Shown one piece after another: positions 39,709 to 44,726 of a stretch of 64,000 nt of DNA. Each line of letters starts with the position of its first letter. Within the stretch, counting starts at the first letter, position 1. Both the position numbers and the translations under genes were made by a program. Source of the DNA: Streptomonospora salina (GTDB lineage: Bacteria > Actinomycetota > Actinomycetes > Streptosporangiales > Streptosporangiaceae); the NCBI RefSeq assembly GCF_014204715.1, contig NZ_JACHLY010000001.1:186001-250000 (forward strand). Reading direction: 5' to 3'. The notes beneath the pieces were generated by a model that was not told the DNA's origin, searched no databases, and worked only from the letters and a program-made list of their open reading frames with translations.

Positions 39709-41946
39709 TCAGCGCGCCAAGCGCAGGACCCGTTCGACGATGCGCTCGCCGACCCCGGCGGTGAGGATCGACTCCGGGTGGAACTGCACCGCCCATTTGC
39801 GGGCGTCGGCGTCTTCGACGGCCATGACCACCGGCTCGGCGCCGTCGTCGTGCACGGCGGCGGTGACGGTGAAGCCCTTCACACGCTCGGGTGTGGTGTA
39901 GGTGGAGTGGTAGCGGGCGGCGGTGAACCCGTCGCCTCCGAGCTCCGACAGCAGATCGCCGCCGCTGACGCGCACGCGGCCGGGCTTGCCGTGCACGGGT
40001 TCGTCGAGGGTGCGGAGTTCCCCGCCGGCGTGCTCGACCATGGCCTGCAGGCCCAGGCAGACGCCGAAGACCGGTAGGCCGCGGGCGTCGAGCTCGTCCA
40101 GCAGCGCGGCGGCGCCGAAGTCGGCGGGCAGGCCCGGCCCGGGGGAGAGCACGACCAGGTCGGGGGCGGTTTCGTCCAGCAGTGCGGGGTCGAATCCGTG
40201 CCGCACGGTGGTGACCTCGGCACCGTGGCGGCGCACGTAGTCGGCGAGGGTGTGCACGAAGGAGTCCTCGTAGTCGACCAGCAGCACCCGCATCCCGGCG
40301 CCGGCGGGCTCGGCGGCCGGTTCCGGCCGTGCGGCGGGCTCGGCGGCCGGGGTGTCGGCGGCCTCGTCGAGGGCGAGGGTCTCCAGCAGCGCGCGGGCCT
40401 TGAGGAAGGTCTCGCGCTCTTCGGCGTCGGGGTCGGAGTCGTGCAGCAGGGTGGCACCCACGCGCACGGTGGCCACGCCGTCGCGGATGTGGGCGGTGCG
40501 CAGCGTCAAGCCGGTGTTCATGGAGCCGTCGAAGCCGATGGCGCCGACGGCGCCGCCGTACCAGCGGCGCGGGGTGGCTTCGTGCTGTTCGATGAAGCGC
40601 ATCGCCCAGGTCTTGGGCGCGCCGGTGACGGTGACCGCCCACATGTGGGTGAGGAAGGCGTCCAGGGCGTCGAATTCGGGGCGCAGCCGGCCTTCGATGT
40701 GGTCGACGGTGTGGATTAGCCTGCTGTACATCTCGATCTGCCGGCGGCCGATGACGCGGACGCTGCCGGGTTCGCACACCCGCGACTTGTCGTTGCGGTC
40801 GACGTCGGTGCACATGGTCAGCTCGGACTCCTCCTTGGCGGAGGTGAGCAGGGACCGGATGTTCTCGGCGTCGCCGAGGGCGTCGTCGCCGCGGCGGACG
40901 GTTCCGGAGATGGGGCAGGTCTCGATGCGCCGGCCCTGGTCGGGGTCGCCGCTGACGCGCACGAACATCTCCGGGGAAGCGCCGACGAGGTATTCGCCGT
41001 CGCCGAGGTTGAAGAAGAACTCATACGGCGCGGGGTTGCGGGTGCGCAGGTGCTCGTAGAAGCGGGCCGGGGAGTCGCAGGCGCCGTAGGTGCGGTGGCC
41101 GGGCACGACTTCGAACAGGTCGCCGCGGGCGAAGCGCTTCTTGGCTTCGGCGACGATGCGGGCGTAGCTGCCGGGTTCGGGCGGCGGGGGGACGTCGGCG
41201 GTGCGCACGGCGGGGGTGGGCGCGGTGGTGCGCTCCAGGCCGCGGGTGGTGCGCGGGGCCGCCCCGGTGTCGGCGTCGGCGGGCACGGTGAACTCGTAGG
41301 TGTAGCGCAGGCAGGTCTCGCGCTTGCGGTCGTGCACGATGACGGCGTCGGGCAGGTGCAGTACCAGGTCGCGGTCGTCGGGGTCGCGTTCCAGGACGGG
41401 GGCGACGGGCTCGAACTGGAAGGCGAGATCGTAGCCGAAAGCGCCGTAGAGGCCCAGATGGCGGTCGTCGGGTGCGTAGAACAGGGCCACCGTCGAGCGC
41501 AGGACGGAGAAGACGCTGGGGCGGCGGCTGCGCTGCTCTTCGGTGAAGAACTCCCCGGGTGCGGGTTCGGGGACGGTGACGTCGACGGCCTCGCCGGGGC
41601 GGTGGTCGGCGTCGCCGTGCTCGGCGAAGGCCGCGGCCACCAGGGGCAGCAGCACCCGGCCGCGGTCGTTGAGCGCGGTGGCGCTGACGCGGCGGCCGCG
41701 TGCGGCGATCTCCAGGCAGGGGTCGACGTAGCCCATGTGCCAGCGGCTGTAGCGGCCGGGGTACTCCATGCCCGAGGACAGCACGCCGCCGCGGCGGTGC
41801 TCGACGGAGGCCACCAGGGCGGTGAGAGTCGCGGGGTCGCAGGGTGCGGCGGTGCGGTCGACGGTGACGCCGCCGGAGGTGCGGTAGGTGGTGTGGGCGT
41901 CCGCGGGCGTGCCGCCCGGGGTGTCGGTGCCTGTCGGTGTGGTCAC
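39709..41946 (-). CDS. trpE: Anthranilate synthase, fused TrpE-TrpG
   Basis: Single-chain anthranilate synthase of 745 residues, the first step from chorismate to tryptophan. Residues 1-510 are the chorismate-binding TrpE part: YGAFGYDLAFQFEPV, GDLFEVVPGHRTYG, EFFFNLGDGEYLVGASPEMF, ETCPISGTVRRGDDA, CTDVDRNDKSRVCEPGSV, MWAVTVTGAPKTWAMRF. A Glu/Ala-rich linker leads to the glutaminase: VLLVDYEDSFVHTLADYVRR, nucleophile FGVCLGLQAMVEHAGG and AVQFHPESIL. GTG 41946 follows AAAGGA. The leader has a short Trp-codon peptide and a strong attenuator, so transcription should rise when charged tRNA-Trp is scarce. PhzE-like enzymes are also fused, but the trp leader favours Trp biosynthesis. Confidence 0.94.
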   Translation of the reverse strand: MTTPTGTDTPGGTPADAHTTYRTSGGVTVDRTAAPCDPATLTALVASVEHRRGGVLSSGMEYPGRYSRWHMGYVDPCLEIAARGRRVSATALNDRGRVLLPLVAAAFAEHGDADHRPGEAVDVTVPEPAPGEFFTEEQRSRRPSVFSVLRSTVALFYAPDDRHLGLYGAFGYDLAFQFEPVAPVLERDPDDRDLVLHLPDAVIVHDRKRETCLRYTYEFTVPADADTGAAPRTTRGLERTTAPTPAVRTADVPPPPEPGSYARIVAEAKKRFARGDLFEVVPGHRTYGACDSPARFYEHLRTRNPAPYEFFFNLGDGEYLVGASPEMFVRVSGDPDQGRRIETCPISGTVRRGDDALGDAENIRSLLTSAKEESELTMCTDVDRNDKSRVCEPGSVRVIGRRQIEMYSRLIHTVDHIEGRLRPEFDALDAFLTHMWAVTVTGAPKTWAMRFIEQHEATPRRWYGGAVGAIGFDGSMNTGLTLRTAHIRDGVATVRVGATLLHDSDPDAEERETFLKARALLETLALDEAADTPAAEPAARPEPAAEPAGAGMRVLLVDYEDSFVHTLADYVRRHGAEVTTVRHGFDPALLDETAPDLVVLSPGPGLPADFGAAALLDELDARGLPVFGVCLGLQAMVEHAGGELRTLDEPVHGKPGRVRVSGGDLLSELGGDGFTAARYHSTYTTPERVKGFTVTAAVHDDGAEPVVMAVEDADARKWAVQFHPESILTAGVGERIVERVLRLAR

Positions 41947-42005
41947 GGCCGGTCCTTTGCGCTGGGCTGGGCGGTTGCACGTGGAGCGGCACCGGACCGG
42001 GGCCG

Positions 42006-42042
42006 GAAAAGGCGAAAGCGGCCGCCGGTACGGGCGGCCGCT
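42006..42042 (-). terminator. Transcription attenuator in the trpE leader
   Basis: Perfect ten-pair hairpin AGCGGCCGCC-CGTACC-GGCGGCCGCT (42042-42017), followed on the minus strand by TTTCGCCTTTT. This is a true U-rich intrinsic terminator, rare in so GC-rich a sequence, placed between the leader peptide and trpE. Confidence 0.8.
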
Positions 42043-42080
42043 GGGCTGATCCGGGGGAATCGCGTACCTGCAGGCGCCGC

Positions 42081-42125
42081 CTAGGAGCGGCGCCACCACT
42101 GTTGCCGAGCGGACGCGATTCGCAT
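42081..42125 (-). CDS. trpL: trp operon leader peptide with tandem Trp codons
   Basis: Fourteen codons, MRIASARQQWWRRS and TAG, with two adjacent TGG codons (42098-42093). Ribosome stalling at these codons under tryptophan limitation would prevent formation of the attenuator hairpin 39 bases downstream. A TATGCT element ends seven bases before the ATG, so the message may begin at or near the A of the ATG and be leaderless. Streptomyces trp genes have comparable short leaders with consecutive Trp codons. Confidence 0.8.
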   Translation of the reverse strand: MRIASARQQWWRRS

Positions 42126-42132
42126 GCTGCCG

Positions 42133-42138
42133 AGCATA
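42133..42138 (-). promoter_or_regulatory. -10 element of trpL-trpE promoter
   Basis: TATGCT on the minus strand, seven bases before the leader ATG. No convincing -35 hexamer is seen at 16-19 bases upstream. Confidence 0.45.
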
Positions 42139-42284: not shown

Positions 42285-44726
42285 ATGCACGAAGTTCAAC
42301 ACAGCGGTCGGAGCGAGGACCGCGAGCAGGGGCGCGCCGCGGCCGTGCGCGCCGAACAGGGCTACGTCGACCTGCTCTACGCGCGCCTGGACGTGCTGCG
42401 GACGCGCACCTCGCAGTCGCTGTCGGAGGCGTTGGGCCGCGGCGGGGGCGGGGGCTACGCCATTCGGACCGAGCGGGAGGCCCAGGCCCACGAGAACGGG
42501 CGGCGACTGGCCCAGCTCAACTCCGTCGAGAACGGCCTGTGCTTCGGCCGCATCGACGCCGGCGACCGGGGTGCGGCCGCCGAGATCCGCTACATCGGCC
42601 GCATCGGCCTGCGGGACGAGGACCACGAGACGATCCTGATCGACTGGCGCGCTCCCGCCGCACGCCCCTTCTACGCGGCCTCGCCCTCCTCCCCCGAGGG
42701 CCTGGTGCGCCGCCGCCACCTGCACCTGCGCGACCGCACCGTCGTCGACATCGACGACGAGGTGTTCGACCTCGACGGCCTCACCGAGGACGACCGCCGC
42801 CACCTGGTCGGCGAAGCCGCGCTGCTGGCGACCCTGAACCGCGGACGCACCGGGCGCATGGGCGACATCGTCGCCACCATCCAGGCCGAGCAGGACCGCG
42901 TCATCCGCGCCGCCCTGGCCGGCGCCCTGGTGGTCCAGGGCGGCCCGGGCACCGGCAAGACCGTCGCGGCGCTGCACCGCGCCGCCTACCTGCTCTACAC
43001 GCACAGGCGGACCCTGGAGCGCCGCGGCGTTCTCGTCGTGGGCCCCAACCCGACGTTCCTGCGCTACATCGGGCGGGTCCTGCCCTCCCTCGGCGAGACC
43101 GACGTCGTGGTGCAGACCGTCGGGCAGCTGTATCCGGGGGTGGCGGCCGGCACCGAGGACGCCCCCGAGGCGGCGGCCCTCAAGGGATCGGCGCGTATGG
43201 CCGCCGTCGTGGAAGCCGCGGTGGCCGACCGCCAGCGCGTCCCGGAGGGCGATCTGGTGGTCGAGACCGACGGGACCGAGTTGCGCGTGCCCCACGAGAT
43301 CTGCCGGCACCTGCGTGACCGGGCCCGCGAGCTCGGGTTGGCGCACAACCGGGCCCGCAAGCTGTTCGCCACTGAGATGCTGTGGGAACTGGCCCGGGCG
43401 CAGGACGAATGGCTGGAGGCATCGCTGCGCGACGCCGAGGCGCTGCTGGAGGAGGCCGGACAGGCCGGCCGGGCCGGGCTTTCCGAGCTGGAGGACCCCG
43501 ACGCGCGGCTGCGCAGCGAGGACGACACCGCCCATGCGCGCGAGACGCTGTGGGCCGACCCCGGGGTACGCGCGGCCGTGGACGCGCTGTGGCCGCTGCT
43601 CACCCCCGAGCGGCTCGTCGGCGACCTGCTGAACGATCCCGGACGGCTCGCCGCGGCGGCCGCGGGGGCCGAACGGATCAGCGCCGGTCAGGGCTTGGCC
43701 GACGGCGAGATGCGGCTGCTGTCGCGCCCGCCCGGGGCGCCGTGGACCGTCGGCGACGTCCCGCTGCTGGACGAGGCCGCCGAACTGCTGGGCACCGACG
43801 GCGGCGAAGAGCAGGACCGCGACCGCGAGGCCCGGCAGCGCCGGGAGCAGGCCGAGCTCTCCGCCCAGGATGTGGTGGAATACCTCGGCACGTATGAGAC
43901 CGGGATGATGGTCGACTCCGCCGCCCTGCTCGCCGACCGGCAGGAGGAATCCTCGGCGCTGACCACGGCCGACCGCGCCGCTGCCGACCGCACCTGGGCC
44001 TACGGCCACGTGATCGTGGACGAGGCGCAGGAACTGTCGGAGATGGCCTGGCGCACGGTGATGCGCCGGGTTCCGGCGAAGTCGCTGACCGTGGTGGGCG
44101 ACCTCGCCCAGACCGGCAGCGCGGCGGGTGCACGCTCCTGGCAGGAGGTGCTGGAACCCTACGTCGGCGACCGGCTGCACGAGGAGCGCCTGCTGGTGAA
44201 CTACCGGACCCCGGCCGAGATCATGGCGGTGGCGGCCGACGTGCTGGCCGAGATCGCGCCGGAGCAGCAGGTTCCGGAATCGGTTCGCGAGGGCGGCGAC
44301 GCACCTCGGGCGGTGCGGGTCGACGGCGCCGGCGGCCTGGCGGAACGGCTGGCCGAAGTGGTCGCGGCCGAACTGGCCGCGATCGGCGAGGGCCGGGTGG
44401 GCGTCCTCACCCCCGCGGCGCGCATCGCCGCCGTCGCCGCCGCCCTTCCCGACGCCGCAGCGCAGGCCGATCCCACCGCACTGGACTCCCCCGTGGCCGT
44501 GCTCACTCCCACCCAGAGCAAGGGTCTGGAGTTCGACGCGGTCGTGATCGTCGACCCGGGCGGCATTCTCGCCGCCTCGCCCTCGGGGGGCCGCGACCTC
44601 TACGTCGCCGTCACCCGCGCCACCCGCCGCCTCACCGTGGTCCACGAGGGCGGGCTGCCCGCGATGCTGTCGCGCCTCGGCGACGGCGGCCCCGTACCTG
44701 CGGCCACGGTGGGCGACCACGGCTGA
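42285..44726 (+). CDS. helR: HelR-type RNA polymerase recycling motor ATPase (HelD family)
   Basis: UvrD/Rep-like superfamily-1 ATPase of 813 residues. HelD/HelR proteins free stalled or rifampicin-bound RNA polymerase instead of unwinding DNA. Opening coiled coil: EQGYVDLLYARLDVLRTRTS; then YIGRIGLRDEDHETILIDWR and AARPFYAAS. Walker A is VVQGGPGTGKTVAALHRAAY (near 218), Walker B IVDEAQELSEMAWR, SF1 motifs GDLAQTGSAAGARSW and VNYRTPAEI, and the C-terminal LTPTQSKGLEFDAVVIVDPG. The presence of GPGTGKT and length agree with HelR of Streptomyces. The only Shine-Dalgarno candidate (AGGAG) is a single base from the ATG. The leader is AT-rich. Confidence 0.88.
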   Translation: MHEVQHSGRSEDREQGRAAAVRAEQGYVDLLYARLDVLRTRTSQSLSEALGRGGGGGYAIRTEREAQAHENGRRLAQLNSVENGLCFGRIDAGDRGAAAEIRYIGRIGLRDEDHETILIDWRAPAARPFYAASPSSPEGLVRRRHLHLRDRTVVDIDDEVFDLDGLTEDDRRHLVGEAALLATLNRGRTGRMGDIVATIQAEQDRVIRAALAGALVVQGGPGTGKTVAALHRAAYLLYTHRRTLERRGVLVVGPNPTFLRYIGRVLPSLGETDVVVQTVGQLYPGVAAGTEDAPEAAALKGSARMAAVVEAAVADRQRVPEGDLVVETDGTELRVPHEICRHLRDRARELGLAHNRARKLFATEMLWELARAQDEWLEASLRDAEALLEEAGQAGRAGLSELEDPDARLRSEDDTAHARETLWADPGVRAAVDALWPLLTPERLVGDLLNDPGRLAAAAAGAERISAGQGLADGEMRLLSRPPGAPWTVGDVPLLDEAAELLGTDGGEEQDRDREARQRREQAELSAQDVVEYLGTYETGMMVDSAALLADRQEESSALTTADRAAADRTWAYGHVIVDEAQELSEMAWRTVMRRVPAKSLTVVGDLAQTGSAAGARSWQEVLEPYVGDRLHEERLLVNYRTPAEIMAVAADVLAEIAPEQQVPESVREGGDAPRAVRVDGAGGLAERLAEVVAAELAAIGEGRVGVLTPAARIAAVAAALPDAAAQADPTALDSPVAVLTPTQSKGLEFDAVVIVDPGGILAASPSGGRDLYVAVTRATRRLTVVHEGGLPAMLSRLGDGGPVPAATVGDHG

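Follow-up and report, generated by a model that had tools for sequence, protein, structure and literature searches.

A predicted leaderless tryptophan attenuator upstream of a fused trpE(G) gene in Streptomonospora salina, with a conserved helix at the start of its leader

The stretch of the Streptomonospora salina genome analysed here (64,000 nucleotides, hereafter the window) carries on its minus strand trpE(G), a gene for a fused anthranilate synthase. Pfam recognised Chorismate_bind and GATase in the product, which scored 1063 bits with NCBIfam model NF010081 (cut-off 645) and 934 bits with TIGR01815 (TrpE clade 3, fused TrpE-TrpG anthranilate synthase; cut-off 739). The closest named relative is Streptomonospora alba, whose trpE(G) shares 91% identity, followed by other Streptomonospora, Nocardiopsis, Actinorugispora, and Thermobifida. 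A match of this strength over the fused protein was found in 12 of 148 sampled genomes of the class (that of the window included), 11 of the 12 within the family of the window, and no unfused trpE in the same genome matched above the family cut-off. Divergent from trpE(G) lies a gene for a UvrD-type helicase, possibly HelD-like (42285-44726, plus strand; Pfam UvrD-helicase). It starts 160 bases from the leader ATG described below, so the two promoters occupy the same short intergenic region. At the Rfam gathering threshold no family matched at the trp leader; the one match in the window was a glycine riboswitch (RF00504, 12661-12751, minus strand, 65.6 bits). The locus is therefore not filed under RF00513, the Rfam Trp leader family, though it appears to work like a Trp leader.

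A preliminary description of this DNA had proposed a 14-codon ORF with tandem TGG codons, a perfect ten-pair hairpin with a U-tract, a fused trpE-trpG downstream, and a TATGCT ending seven bases from the ATG, all within a control unit of about 120 bases. Each of these was confirmed and every number proved right (Table 1): the fusion is borne out by the Pfam, NF010081, and TIGR01815 matches, and the terminated RNA is predicted at about 119 nt. The terminator stem, AGCGGCCGCC-CGTACC-GGCGGCCGCT, is perfect over its 10 pairs and is followed by TTCGCCTTTT, a U-tract that is interrupted here as in most relatives. No obvious -35 box was seen by eye upstream of TATGCT. We count the interrupted U-tract and the lack of a clear -35 box as evidence against the attenuator account given below. 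Absent from the preliminary description were the protector hairpin, the antiterminator pairing, and a helix, P0, in which leader codons 2-5 pair with the segment separating strand 2 from strand 3.

Table 1. Features of the trp leader and trpE(G) in the window
Feature	Position	Strand	Remarks
-10 box TATGCT	42133..42138	-	7 nt upstream of ATG
Leader ORF trpL, ATG (42125-42123) to TAG, peptide MRIASARQQWWRRS	42081..42125	-	14 codons; predicted transcription start at A 42125
Tandem Trp codons of trpL	42098-42093	-	
Helix P0, 5' arm GAATCGCGTCC, codons 2-5	42111..42121	-	minimum-energy fold; swap and codon-permutation tests
Protector hairpin 1:2 (GGCGCCGCT / CCTA / GGCGGCGCC)	42073..42094	-	overlaps last Trp codon and stop codon
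Helix P0, 3' arm GGTACGCGATTC	42057..42068	-	fold; swap and permutation tests in relatives
Antiterminator, strand 2 GGCGGC (42081-42076) with strand 3 GCCGCC (42038-42033)	42033..42081	-	minimum-energy fold
Terminator 3:4 (42042-42017) and interrupted U-tract to 42007	42007..42042	-	
Shine-Dalgarno AAAGGA of trpE(G)	41953..41958	-	read from sequence; ends 6 nt before GTG
trpE(G), fused anthranilate synthase, GTG 41946 (start inferred)	39709..41946	-	Pfam, NCBIfam

A short ORF with tandem Trp codons lies upstream of a tryptophan biosynthesis gene, an intrinsic terminator with an imperfect U-tract stands between the two, and a mutually exclusive antiterminator is available whose competitor, strand 1, can be masked by a stalled ribosome. 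The helices predicted for protector, antiterminator, and terminator are those expected of classical attenuation by a translating ribosome. We consider it highly probable that the locus is such a trp transcription attenuator, with its leader peptide translated from a leaderless transcript, and the trpL leader very probably shuts off trpE(G) when tryptophan is plentiful. We infer both where transcription begins in this strain and how the leader reacts to tryptophan. RNA polymerase would take the A of the leader ATG as its first base, leaving the ribosome to bind a 5'-terminal AUG with no Shine-Dalgarno (SD) sequence. Strand 1 begins within the last Trp codon, so a ribosome stalled at UGG10-UGG11 when tryptophan is scarce would mask strand 1 and free strand 2, the 2:3 antiterminator would form, and trpE(G) would be transcribed. 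The stop codon lies at the protector loop, so a ribosome reaching UAG when tryptophan is plentiful would mask strand 2, leaving the 3:4 hairpin to form and terminate transcription. A chance WW ORF was rejected as an explanation: trpL is the single ORF in the 64-kb window that combines leaderless spacing, 6-30 codons, and WW, a whole-genome pattern search gave no second case with in-frame TGGTGG (frames read by eye), and the arrangement is kept in relatives.

Conservation was followed in 66 actinobacterial loci with a leader, spanning Streptosporangiales, Glycomycetales-type genomes, and Actinopolymorpha. When the start was naively set at the nearest start codon downstream, a TANNNT box lay 6-8 nt before it in 57 of the 66 (background rate 0.0034 per position). 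Nearly all of the nine exceptions have an upstream in-frame ATG, and taking that ATG restores the spacing in most; one locus (L066) has a spacing of 9 nt and another (L046) an N in its start region. An SD-like tetramer was found upstream at none of the 66 loci, against about 16% expected by chance. The preliminary description had proposed searching relatives for WW codons, and every leader in the set encodes WW(W)R; the peptide keeps MR at its N-terminus and QWWRR near its C-terminus, with a variable middle. The terminator hairpin was present in all of the relatives' loci examined, and the equivalent of antiterminator 2:3 was found in 63 of 64 loci when strand 1 was taken out of play. RNAalifold, run on a plain MAFFT alignment, recovered hairpins 1:2 and 3:4, and in 8 aligned sequences one terminator pair changes from A-U to G-C on both sides. 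The same predicted leaderless trp leader, MRPALTFQQWWRRW, is carried by Thermobifida fusca (L021:1331-1440), while the regular-leader pattern was not found in L013. In Streptomonospora mangrovi (L017:1200-1420) the leader region is doubled in tandem, the first copy being garbled with G and C runs and the second lacking the TAG; the doubling is possibly an assembly fault at a strong hairpin, or it may be real. Among the outcomes that would speak against its reading, the preliminary description had named a lack of conservation of the leader ORF and hairpin in relatives. Both are conserved, and dozens of genomes keep the ORF with its tandem Trp codons together with the protector, the antiterminator, and the terminator, so the parts of the attenuator are established at the level of sequence and the attenuation reading is supported.

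The leaderless start also has precedents. Streptomyces lividans TrpL1 is transcribed leaderless according to 5'-end RNA-seq (PMC8079986), and the trpL RNA of Sinorhizobium meliloti has its 5' end at its own ATG (PMC7298713). TrpL1-type leaders in 12 genomes of one genus, Streptomyces, show the same 7-nt distance between box and ATG that is seen in the window. A leaderless start is thus normal for this kind of attenuator, and neither of the terms used in the preliminary description, compact and leaderless, marks out anything unusual here. The trpL sequence carries both marks of leaderless mRNA that were looked for: its -10 box stands about 7 nt upstream of the start codon, and an SD is absent. 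The spacing of 6-8 nt, the missing SD, and the TrpL1 precedent together give strong support, by sequence and analogy, to leaderless initiation with a predicted start at the A of ATG 42125.

The E. coli trp leader, known from the work of Yanofsky, operates by a four-strand attenuation logic, with an SD-led leader preceded by a 5' UTR and with TrpR repression in addition. A distal RNA segment of the E. coli trp transcript reportedly blocks the leader ribosome-binding site in vitro, as described by Das and colleagues in 1983. That system shares with the present one the four-strand logic and a distal segment hiding the leader start region, and differs in the SD, the 5' UTR, and the additional repressor. 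The Streptomyces TrpL1-trpE attenuator (S. lividans MFAHSTRNWWWTAHPAAH, PMC8079986) likewise has a leaderless ORF with tandem Trp codons, a -10 box at the same 7-nt distance from its ATG, a protector, a terminator, and a monocistronic trpE gene; it differs in having three Trp codons, an unrelated peptide, and, in S. lividans, linkage to an unfused trpE. A trp attenuator in S. venezuelae is attributed to Lin et al. 1998 as referred to in PMC1262725. The S. meliloti trpL-trpE(G) system (PMC7298713, which cites Bae and Crawford 1990 for the attenuator) likewise has a fused trpE(G) and a 14-residue leader peptide, but it has WWW instead of WW and other hairpin sequences, and belongs to another phylum. 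The attenuators predicted by Seliverstov et al. 2005 (PMC1262725) show double or triple UGG, a GC-rich terminator, and an alternative antiterminator, as here. That survey, which had T. fusca among its genomes, reported trp attenuators in Corynebacterium and Streptomyces only and did not discuss leaderless starts, whereas we find a T. fusca leader. The mycobacterial leaderless polycysteine ORFs (Canestrari et al. 2020, as summarised in PMC9031893 and PMC13236596) are likewise short leaderless ORFs that sense amino acid supply and attenuate an operon; according to these summaries, they respond to cysteine and act on downstream translation rather than through an intrinsic terminator.

Helix P0 differs in its details from lineage to lineage. 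In the minimum-energy fold of the window it leaves the AUG outside the pairing, as it does in this genus and some others. The commonest P0 in relatives pairs AUGCGAAC with GUUCGCAU, and the start codon itself is paired. Lineage-specific pairings join AUGCGCAG with CUGCGCAU (L067), AUGCGAAAC with GUUUCGCGU (L036), and AUGCGGA with UCCGCGU (L061), and GUG starts pair with GCGC or GCAC partners (L065, L052). RNAalifold on the plain MAFFT alignment did not return P0 because the 3' arm shifts register between lineages, and P0 was therefore tested alignment-free, by swapping and permuting. Over 60 distinct loci the mean P0 duplex energy was -12.8 kcal/mol with each locus's own partner, -10.4 with a swapped partner, and -7.1 after shuffling (Wilcoxon 7e-9; the loci are related, so this P overstates their independence and P values of the P0 tests should not be read literally). 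Five or more P0 pairs formed in 97% of whole-leader folds, compared with 53% after codon permutation. All 11 Rhizobiales leaders showed P0-like pairing, the control figure being 58%. Streptomyces leaders were modestly above control; folds of most TrpL1-type leaders contain a P0-like pairing, GU-CGCGCA with UGCGCGUAC, and P0 barely exceeds its control there. P0 recurs, then, in Nocardiopsaceae, Streptosporangiales, Streptomyces, and Rhizobiales, and its conservation and covariation are evident in the compared sequences. In the literature searched, no paper on start-codon sequestration in a trp leader was found, although key older papers could already show P0. The helix may be an undescribed element, and perhaps the sole new part of a leader that otherwise follows known attenuators.

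Several other accounts of these features have to be weighed. The transcript might begin further upstream and place a short 5' UTR before the leader ORF; the 5' end in this genus is a predicted one, and no -35 box is apparent. The constancy of the 6-8 nt spacing across the groups sampled, the absence of an SD in all 66 loci, and the same spacing in Streptomyces TrpL1-type leaders, leaderless in S. lividans, make such an attenuator with an upstream start quite unlikely. We think it improbable that the terminated 119-nt RNA serves as a functional small RNA or as the source of a functional peptide, with P0 contributing to its stability or to action in trans. The architecture resembles that of S. 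meliloti trpL, for whose RNA, rnTrpL, and peptide, peTrpL, roles in trans have been proposed (PMC7298713), but the N-terminal half of the leader peptide varies between genera, which disfavours a conserved peptide function. The inverted repeat that forms P0 could also be read as a DNA operator for a repressor, since in many loci its two arms repeat each other almost perfectly in inverted orientation (ATGCGAAC ... GTTCGCAT). The spacing of the arms is variable (mostly 53 to 71 nt) and keeps no single fixed helical phase, the arms covary within loci while no common site sequence is kept, and one arm sits inside leader ORF codons; we hold an operator to be very unlikely.

What P0 does as an RNA helix is a closer question. 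Ribosomes can enter a leaderless message at its 5' end and nowhere else. This end is what P0 covers, which leads to a reading of P0 as a gate on initiation. We propose that P0 would let leaderless initiation take place once per transcript, early on, by shutting the initiation window when about 70 nt have been transcribed. It would also enclose and stabilise the protector hairpin and make termination the default for transcripts lacking a ribosome. It is possible, and we put it forward tentatively, that P0 is a kinetic gate in the leaderless trp attenuators found among Actinobacteria and Rhizobiales, where it would hide the 5'-terminal start codon after the protector has been transcribed. Possible too, though short of probable, is that P0 merely extends the protector to secure termination without a ribosome, with the hiding of the start codon incidental. 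In the folds P0 encloses hairpin 1:2, an arrangement that would work against the antiterminator, and in the window's genus and some others it falls on codons 2-5 and not on the AUG. Against this, 67% of relatives have all of the start codon paired, compared with 17% after codon permutation, which exceeds what a closing stem needs, although the closeness to the start may simply follow from how long the arms are. A gate admitting one early ribosome and a stabiliser making termination the default both fit the sequence data.

Leaderless trp attenuation, well supported by the comparison, is here extended to an actinobacterial branch comprising Nocardiopsaceae, Thermobifida, Actinomadura, and relatives, for which the literature examined contains no report of it. 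Attenuation hinges on the timing between the polymerase and the first ribosome. Since a leaderless message loads at its 5' end only, a conserved helix that hides this end allows initiation timing and a one-ribosome limit to be tested directly, and more than 60 natural variants of the leader are at hand. If P0 is indeed a kinetic gate, the ribosome would load in a short early window, and a single initiation event tied to transcription would decide the outcome.
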